The translations under genes were made by a program, and so were the position numbers. Below are positions 27,354 through 29,722 of a stretch of 64,000 nt of DNA, one piece after another. This DNA comes from Floccularia luteovirens (Eukaryota > Basidiomycota > Agaricomycetes > Agaricales > Squamanitaceae). How positions within the stretch are numbered: position 1 is the stretch's first letter; every line of letters begins with the position of its first letter. Under the pieces are notes generated by a model that worked only from the letters and a program-made list of their open reading frames with translations, searched no databases and was not told where the DNA came from. The stretch spans positions 558,001 to 622,000 of the forward strand of contig VSJF01000004.1 of NCBI GenBank assembly GCA_009739215.1, given 5' to 3'.

Positions 27354-28125
27354 ATGGACAACAGGCCTGTCAAACTTTTCACTGTAACCGCTGCTGCTGT
27401 TGCCACCGGTTTACTCGCTTATGCCGTCTATTTTGACTACAAACGGAGGAATGACGCCCAATTCCGCAAGAAACTGCGTAAGTTCTTTGTTTAGTTCACC
27501 AACATCATCGTTTAACGTTCCTTTCAGGCAAGGAGAAGAAGCGTGTCAACAAAACTGTCGCGGAGCAAGCAAAGGAAAATCCTTCTGCTTCTGCATCGTC
27601 AGAAATTACACCAGAGGTTTTGCGCAATGCCTTGCAACAAATTAAAAATGAACCCAGCCCAGCAACCTCAGATGAAAAAGAGGCTTACTTTATGACACAA
27701 GTAGGAATGGGTGAACAACTTGCTGCTCAGGGTACGTTGCCTACCAAGCTATGTATATAGTAAAATTAAATTGTTCCAGGTCCTGCCTTCCGCCTCCCTG
27801 CTGCAATGGCATTCTTCCGGGCCCTCCGCGTGTATCCTTCACCTGTGGAGTTGATCGTCATATATCAAAAGACCGTTCCTGAGGAAATCTTTAATGTGCG
27901 TCATTTGTGTATAGCCATGCCACACCCTCATGTCGTGAACTCTCCCAATAGATCGTTATGGACATGACCAATCTGGACGTAAGTACACCTTCTTCGCCAA
28001 GTGGCCGAGAGGCAAAGATCGTGGAGGAAGAGGATCACAGTCCGACGAGCGGCCCGCCCTCAGAGACTTCCTCGCAGGAATGGGACAGAGTCACTGATCC
28101 TGGTTCTCTTACACCTGCTTCATAA
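27354..28125 (+). CDS. TOM20: mitochondrial import receptor TOM20 (short form)
   Basis: Four exons: 27354-27477, 27528-27731, 27780-27895, 27952-28125, giving 205 aa. An N-terminal anchor (LFTVTAAAVATGLLAYAVYF) is followed by a basic segment, FDYKRRNDAQFRKKLR. The MAS20 receptor domain carries GMGEQLAAQGPAFRLPAA and FFRALRVYPSPVELIVIYQ. The acidic tail ends near SSQEWDRVTDPGS. The protein sits in the outer mitochondrial membrane and recognises presequences for the TOM complex. The last exon reads through a GTAAGT donor at 27979; splicing there instead replaces the tail with the downstream SET-domain protein. The anchor and receptor domain are firm; which C-terminus predominates is unknown. 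Confidence 0.92.
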
Positions 28126-28313
28126 GGGTATTCCCTTAATCTACCTCCCTGCTACTTCTGGAGGTAGGAGAGGTTGTTTTGATAGGTCGTCACTCGTAGG
28201 ACAATTACAGCTATCAGTCCGCACCTTGTTCTGTCCTGCTTCATCGTTTGCACAAATATGTTCTAATATACTTTTATTCTCTTTTTTTGCACAATATACA
28301 CCACTTCTCACAG

Positions 28314-29722
28314 GTTAAAGCCCGAATTGAAGGTGAGTGAATGAAGATTTCAAGGTTTAACTTGTGCTGAGACTGCATGAATGTCATGAATAGCTTACTA
28401 TGATGAATTTCCACCAAAATCCACCAATGTTGCCGTAGAAACCCGGGAAACGCATCCTAACCAAGGCCCTCGTAAGGTTCTCATCGTGAAAAAGGGTATT
28501 CCAGCAGGGGAGGTGATATACAAGGTACAGACATACATAGTACCTCGTTCTTTTACATTTGTTCTGACAAAAATATGGCAGGAATTCCCTATTGTTGCTG
28601 CTCTCGACCAGGATCTCCAACTTTCAGGAACACATTGTACTCATTGCCTCCGTCTCATCCAATCTAACATGGCCATCCAACTACCCGAAGACTCTTGCGT
28701 ATTTCCGTCTACTTACTGTTCCAAGGCTTGCCTCCTATCTTCGAAAGCCCAGTCTAACTCACTTTTGTTTACTTTGGATCCTGCCCTCCCTCCAGAGATT
28801 CCTGCTCCTCCTTCTCCCCCTGCACTAATGGAAAATCGTAAAAAGGCTCAGGTTCAATTCGTCAATCACCTCAAAAAGGAAGGTCGTGCTGCACCTGTGC
28901 TCGCGGCTCGCTTCATTGCAAGACAGGTTGTTGCGGAAACAAATAAGATGATCGAGGCAACAGGAAAGCGCCCCGCTAAGGATGAAAATGACTTTACCGA
29001 TTCTGATTCCAAAGAATACGGCTTGGCTGACCATATAGAAAGGTTGCGGTACCTGGAAGTAGTCCCCGCTGATGGGGAACATCATTTCCTGGTAGATGTG
29101 TTGCAAGCGACTTTACCTGGTTTGGAACAATTTGTCACAGATGAAAGATATGCGACACTTCTTGGAAAACTTGCATATAACGCATTTGGAGTATGCTTCG
29201 GTGGTGGACGGGATGATAGGGTAATGTTCTTATAGTGTTGATAGATACTTTCTAATCACAATTACACAGCCTCAACAAGATGTTCGCCCAGAGAATGTCG
29301 AAAAATCACGTACTCCATATGGCACGGATCGTCAAATTGGAAGCGCATTGTATACGGTTTCCTCTTACCTCAATCATTCCTGCAGGCCCTCTGCACGGCC
29401 TTCATTTAGCTCGGGAACATCCGAGTTACACCTTATTGCCACCCGCGATCTGAAGGAGGGTGATGAACTTACCGTCGCCTATGTTGATGTCACCCAACGC
29501 CCTGATGAAACTATCGTTGATTGTCGTCGCCGTCGTCGCATGGAACTTGTCCGGGGTTGGCGTTTCGCATGTTTGTGTGAACGTTGTGCGGAAGAGGGTA
29601 AGGACATGTCTTCTGAGGAGAAGGGAGGAGATGTTGCAGAGGAACCTAAGGATGACAGTAAGGTTGAGAAATCTGCCCGTCATGAAGATCCTGTTGGGCT
29701 CGCTGTCGGCGGTGTTGAGTAA
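28314..29722 (+). CDS. SET-domain protein, probably expressed as a C-terminal fusion to TOM20
   Basis: Exons 28314-28332, 28394-28524, 28582-29220, 29270-29722. Joined to TOM20 exons 27354-27477, 27528-27731, 27780-27895 and 27952-27978, the frame is continuous for 570 aa. The junction reads NLD|VKARIEAYYDEFPPKS. Early residues resemble the SET N-lobe (RKVLIVKKGIPAGEVIYKEFP). A MYND-like cysteine pair set follows (CTHCLRLI ... YCSKACL), then SET core motifs SSYLNHSCRPSARP and GDELTVAYVDV, and a post-SET CLCERC. It is a probable protein-lysine methyltransferase. There is no in-frame ATG in the preceding 188 nt or in the first two exons. The first in-frame one is near 28669, inside the cysteine motif, so an independent start is unlikely. 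Confidence 0.85.

Follow-up and report, generated by a model that had tools for sequence, protein, structure and literature searches.

TOM20 is a central import receptor of mitochondria. SMYD proteins are defined by a complete MYND finger with two zinc sites; roles in their active site have been assigned to a tyrosine and to the NHSC motif, and their C-terminal domain is TPR-like. Fungal genes in which MAS20, the TOM20 domain, lies upstream of a SET domain have been noted, with no study of function, as SET Group 25, which the authors did not find in Ascomycota (PMC9692433, 2022). We analyzed a 64,000-nucleotide (nt) stretch of DNA from Floccularia luteovirens (contig VSJF01000004.1, positions 558,001 to 622,000; hereafter the window), in which a spliced gene between positions 27354 and 29722 of the forward strand encodes MAS20 upstream of SET in one protein, as in Group 25. 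The original prediction for this locus, made from the sequence alone, named no characterized example of such a fusion; this needs correction in that the architecture was in print in 2022.

The fusion appears to be one of two products. Judging from the sequences of the window and of its relatives, we consider it quite probable that a single gene has two alternative, conserved C-terminal ends, giving TOM20 or TOM20-SET, and that the choice is made at one splice donor. If the donor at 27979 is ignored, the intron would be kept, with 3′-end formation within or downstream of it; translation would then run through a conserved acidic and serine-containing tail to the stop codon at 28123-28125, yielding an ordinary TOM20 of 205 amino acids (aa). 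If the donor is used, tail and stop would be removed and the receptor joined in phase 0 to a SMYD-like SET protein of 413 aa; in the resulting 570-aa receptor, the SET domain would lie on the cytosolic side of the mitochondrial outer membrane. Should some of the TOM20 in mushrooms be made as TOM20-SET, methylation of proteins may be an integral part of the import gate; no description of such a link was found in the literature searched.

The spliced TOM20-SET frame and its relatives

Reconstruction of splicing in the window gave eight exons and seven introns, all GT-AG, which yield a single open frame of 570 aa. This reproduces the splice from 27979 to 28313 by which the original prediction had joined TOM20 in frame to a SET protein, and the junction reads, as it had claimed, NLD followed directly by VKARIEAYYDEFPP. 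The junction intron measures 335 nt against 48 to 61 nt for the remaining six; all seven introns sum to 656 nt, and the three in the TOM20 part to 154 nt. In the spliced protein an N-terminal anchor is followed by the conserved YFDYKRR...FRK segment, as in TOM20/MAS20 receptors, and the Pfam MAS20 match (E = 2.9e-42) scores 144.3 bits against a curated cut-off of 27; that of SET has an E value of 2.9e-10. Among PDB sequences, Tom20 of 9i7s was the best match (5.2e-31), and the SET part matched SMYD3 best (about 8e-8). In the structural model of a relative, P0001 (predicted local distance difference test 87.6, predicted template modelling score 0.83), one helix, residues 143 to 167, spans the junction at 156/157.

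Protein databases were searched with the fusion, the TOM20 form, and the SET part, and the best 120 of 260, 152, and 270 matches, respectively, were listed (E ≤ 1e-3 for the 260 of the fusion). According to precomputed Pfam annotation, 118 of the best 120 fusion homologues contain both domains, the other two (P0008 and P0104) only MAS20; the fusion is widespread and not confined to this genome. The genera include Hypsizygus, Pleurotus, Coprinopsis, Suillus, Gloeophyllum, Ramaria, and Sistotremastrum, which we take to be Agaricomycetes; for Sistotremastrum niveocremeum this membership was checked. SET models are also present in Tulasnella and Ceratobasidium (Cantharellales) and in Rickenella (Hymenochaetales), all Agaricomycetes, and TOM20 models in Tulasnella, and none of the three has a complete fused model among the matches listed; the Rickenella SET model starts within the TOM20 end.

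The junction itself is conserved. Sorted by regular expression, the 120 models comprise 78 direct junctions, 28 with an additional tail, and 14 others. Spacing across the junction is identical to that of the window in 73 of the 109 models in which it could be measured (9 had no match to the end of the core and 2 none to the start of the SET part). Conservation of the SET exon sets in at its first codons, with Val158 in 86, Lys159, Arg161, and Glu163 each in 79, and Tyr165 in 118 of the 120. Three proteins are encoded on contigs too short for introns and therefore look like spliced transcripts: P0036 (611 aa on 1948 base pairs [bp], 112 nt to spare), P0089 (554 aa on 1883 bp, 218 nt to spare), and P0242 (437 aa across the junction on 1474 bp, 160 nt to spare). 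There is thus good support for the spliced TOM20-SET fusion as a gene product that mushroom fungi really make and that is widespread among them.

A start codon for a separate SET protein was looked for in the unspliced reading. Between 27952 and 28640 there are 12 ATGs, none of whose frames stays open beyond 55 codons, and within the SET part no in-frame Met precedes the one at its residue 80; the earlier statement that this part has no usable ATG thus holds in the window. An independent SET start was rejected here, though many relatives have an internal Met.

These data bear on the view that TOM20 and SET are two ordinary neighboring genes and that the fusion is a gene-prediction artefact or the result of occasional read-through transcription. 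In 16 species TOM20 and SET models are indeed annotated separately on equally long contigs, and in 10 of these species the locus tags are visibly consecutive (one of the 32 names behind this pairing is incomplete). Among the 16 split SET models, seven start from an internal Met just downstream of FPPK, where the window has Thr, and the other nine have assorted leaders. Polycistronic transcripts have been reported in mushroom fungi (PMC4503453), and contigs of 2275 bp (P0174 and P0298) may carry a short TOM20 plus a separate SET open reading frame. Against this stand the missing start in the window, the lack of any common start that includes the first SET residues among the 16 split models, the identical spacing in 73 of 109 models, and the three contigs without room for introns. 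We regard the two-gene view as very unlikely.

Four models (P0043, P0079, P0081, and P0120), presumably all from Boletales, carry a third domain after the SET part, PF04430, which we take to be of the DUF498 type, as if a downstream gene had been joined in the same way.

A coding tail inside the junction intron

The fusion stood as predicted, but the gene is not simply a fusion: the junction intron holds a conserved alternative C terminus, which the original prediction had overlooked. Without the splice at 27979, exon 4 continues for 48 codons (…GPPSETSSQEWDRVTDPG…) to the TAA. This tail, in intron frame 0, matches 82 of the 360 related proteins at E < 1e-3. The fusion list, gathered without the tail in the query, contributes 28 of its 120 proteins, and the TOM20 list, gathered with it, 54 of 120; none of the 120 in the SET list matches. 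As a control, the five other frames of the intron gave 0, 1, 0, 0, and 0 matches among the 360; the lone off-frame match (P0234) appears to be this region read in a shifted frame. Five shuffles gave 0.

The tail was aligned in 84 proteins, chosen from the 240 in the fusion and TOM20 lists by the pattern S..(E/D)W(D/E). Ser189 and Trp192 are 100% conserved because the pattern contains them, and they were not used as evidence. Conservation extends to positions that the pattern does not cover: Pro183 and Pro184 in 89%, Ser185 in 96%, and Glu186 in 93%. Conservation is likewise high over the donor, whose GTAAGT reads as Val158-Ser159 (94% and 93%), and falls to 14 to 43% at the following ten positions. 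The Val-Ser pair is kept in 77 of the 84 tail-bearing proteins; the exceptions are P0171 (Naganishia), P0189, P0210, P0217 (Russula, Ile-Ser), and three models that look misread (P0023, P0138, and P0239). AGT is used for only 1 of the 34 Ser codons of the fusion coding sequence, yet here it forms part of the donor. In Naganishia (P0171), a Tremellomycete, the tail has the EW residues and lacks Val-Ser. On the strength of very few sequences, and of proteins, which cannot show codons, this suggests that of the two ends the tail came first and the donor arose inside it.

Both ends are conserved as coding sequence, as in a gene with alternative terminal ends. It could be argued that the fusion alone is made and that the tail is a relic or a prediction error, and the tail is skipped in 78 of the 120 models. 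A relic, however, would not keep GPPSE...EWD recognizable in 82 of 360 proteins. In addition, the 736-bp contig of P0136 carries the tail in a short form of 204 aa with 121 nt to spare, compared with 154 nt for the three TOM20 introns, which have apparently been removed. We hold the fusion-only alternative to be very unlikely. P0174 and P0298, a short TOM20 and a SET frame on contigs of equal length (2275 bp), possibly belong to one transcript that retains the junction intron.

A search of this genome for TOM20 found a single locus, and the possibility of a second TOM20 gene freeing this one was discarded; ordinary TOM20, if made, would thus probably come from this gene. The SET search returned this locus, three distant matches (3.9e-11, 3.7e-6, and 1.8e-5), and one at 0.15, with no second close SET copy in the genome. 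This organism probably makes both forms and may regulate their ratio.

In nine models (P0004, P0011, P0013, P0045, P0053, P0057, P0071, P0092, and P0096) the tail is joined to the SET part directly after EWDK or EWDT. Such junctions suggest either a second donor, and with it a third form, or a shared prediction error.

Table 1. Features of the predicted two-ended gene, in window coordinates
Feature	Position	Strand	Structure	Basis
Shared TOM20 (MAS20) part	27354..27978	+	Exons 27354-27477, 27528-27731, 27780-27895, 27952-27978; N-terminal anchor and receptor domain, 157 aa	Pfam MAS20 2.9e-42; PDB Tom20 9i7s 5.2e-31
SET part	28314..29722	+	Exons 28314-28332, 28394-28524, 28582-29220, 29270-29722; 413 aa and stop	Pfam SET 2.9e-10; SMYD3 match; fold of relative P0001
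Junction intron	27979..28313	+	335 nt, phase 0, GTAAGT...TCACAG	
Splice donor GTAAGT	27979..27984	+	Read as codons, Val-Ser of the TOM20 tail	
Alternative TOM20 C terminus (predicted)	27979..28125	+	48 codons and TAA, within the junction intron	
Conserved intronic element TGTTCTAATA	28259..28268	+	Once in the window	Matching peptides in models of relatives

The downstream part of the junction intron contains the element TGTTCTAATA. The corresponding peptide (CSN[I/T] or xVLI) occurs in seven models from six genera, presumably all Agaricales, that wrongly translate the intron. At least 16 extra residues are present in 33 of the 109 measurable models, 7 of which have the peptide. It is found in 7 of the 8 models with at least 65 extra residues, the eighth (P0054) being a mismeasured direct junction. 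Four-residue strings of this type occur 9 times in 128,309 residues, those seven included. The element, seen in relatives as peptides and not as DNA, may be a branch point or a 3′-end signal for the short form. A short perfect inverted repeat, CTACCTCC...GGAGGTAG, lies at 28141-28167, just 3′ of the TOM20 stop. An unusual RNA structure of the intron was considered and rejected, with a z score of −0.98 and 17 of 100 shuffles folding equally well or better.

The SET part and its possible role

The SET domain and a SMYD-like fold relate this part to SMYD proteins. The MYND finger is incomplete, consisting only of CxxC and CxxxC, both conserved in 120 of 120 relatives, and Pfam gave no zf-MYND match at E ≤ 1 in the spliced protein. 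Alignments end near SMYD residue 304, and the protein, as modeled for P0001, closes soon after.

From the TOM20 anchor and the SET fold it can fairly be inferred that the fusion would be a lysine methyltransferase on the mitochondrial surface. The SET part is a putative enzyme: in 39 of 120 relatives, Phe or Trp takes the place of the presumed catalytic Tyr. Both forms might be made with a non-enzymatic SET part that serves TOM20 as a binding or scaffold module. The His and Cys of NHSC, the Asn of YNAFG, and the post-SET cysteines are nevertheless kept in 119 to 120 of 120 relatives (at the first two NHSC positions, Asn in 12 and His in all 120), and the window keeps both Tyr491 and NHSC; we consider a purely scaffolding role unlikely. 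An enzymatic SET part would, we infer, be located at the mitochondrial surface and methylate lysines there on precursors, the TOM complex, or ribosomes.

A broader proposal, possible but more doubtful than not, is that the donor has been a TOM20 switch since early Agaricomycete history, setting a plain acidic-tailed receptor against a tethered lysine methyltransferase that marks precursors or the import machinery. Under such a switch, the Val-Ser codons of the tail would be frozen because they are also a splice donor.

The probable two-ended gene among known systems

Several observations weigh against one gene with two ends and an enzymatic SET part. Most of the protein models were predicted automatically, and their junctions therefore do not count as independent experiments; transcript status is read from database contig sizes alone, and for the short form from one tight case, P0136. 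Tail and SET part occur in one protein in 28 of 120 models, nine of them through EWDK/EWDT, which makes a third form or prediction errors possible. The presumed catalytic residue (fusion residue 491) is Tyr in 81, Phe in 37, and Trp in 2 of the 120 relatives. A Met lies at most 25 residues from the GYY motif in 56 of 118 relatives and, together with the seven split SET models that start there, makes a separate, slightly shorter SET protein conceivable in relatives, not in the window. A gene with two ends would, for its part, explain why public annotations disagree, giving one fused gene, two genes, or an inserted tail, and it would be easy to test with RNA of cultivated or laboratory mushrooms.

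In the open literature searched, only PMC9692433 was found to treat MAS20 together with SET. The architecture itself is known; no description of the two conserved ends or of the donor codons was found there. Group 25 genes likewise carry MAS20 upstream of SET, and the text on that group, in the portion of the paper devoted to it, does not mention TOM20, the junction, the intron tail, or two products (PMC9692433). The polycistronic transcripts of mushrooms similarly bring two neighboring coding units onto one transcript (PMC4503453, PMC11590231); here, in contrast, splicing would give one frame, and the stop codon of the first unit is intronic. Unlike SMYD2 and SMYD3, the SET part is joined to TOM20 and has, with CxxC and CxxxC, half of the usual set of MYND zinc ligands; it shows no match beyond about SMYD residue 304, and its presumed catalytic Tyr varies among relatives. 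Compared with the TOM20/MAS20 import receptor, such as Chaetomium Tom20 (PDB 9i7s), the C-terminal end would here be either a conserved tail or a SET protein.
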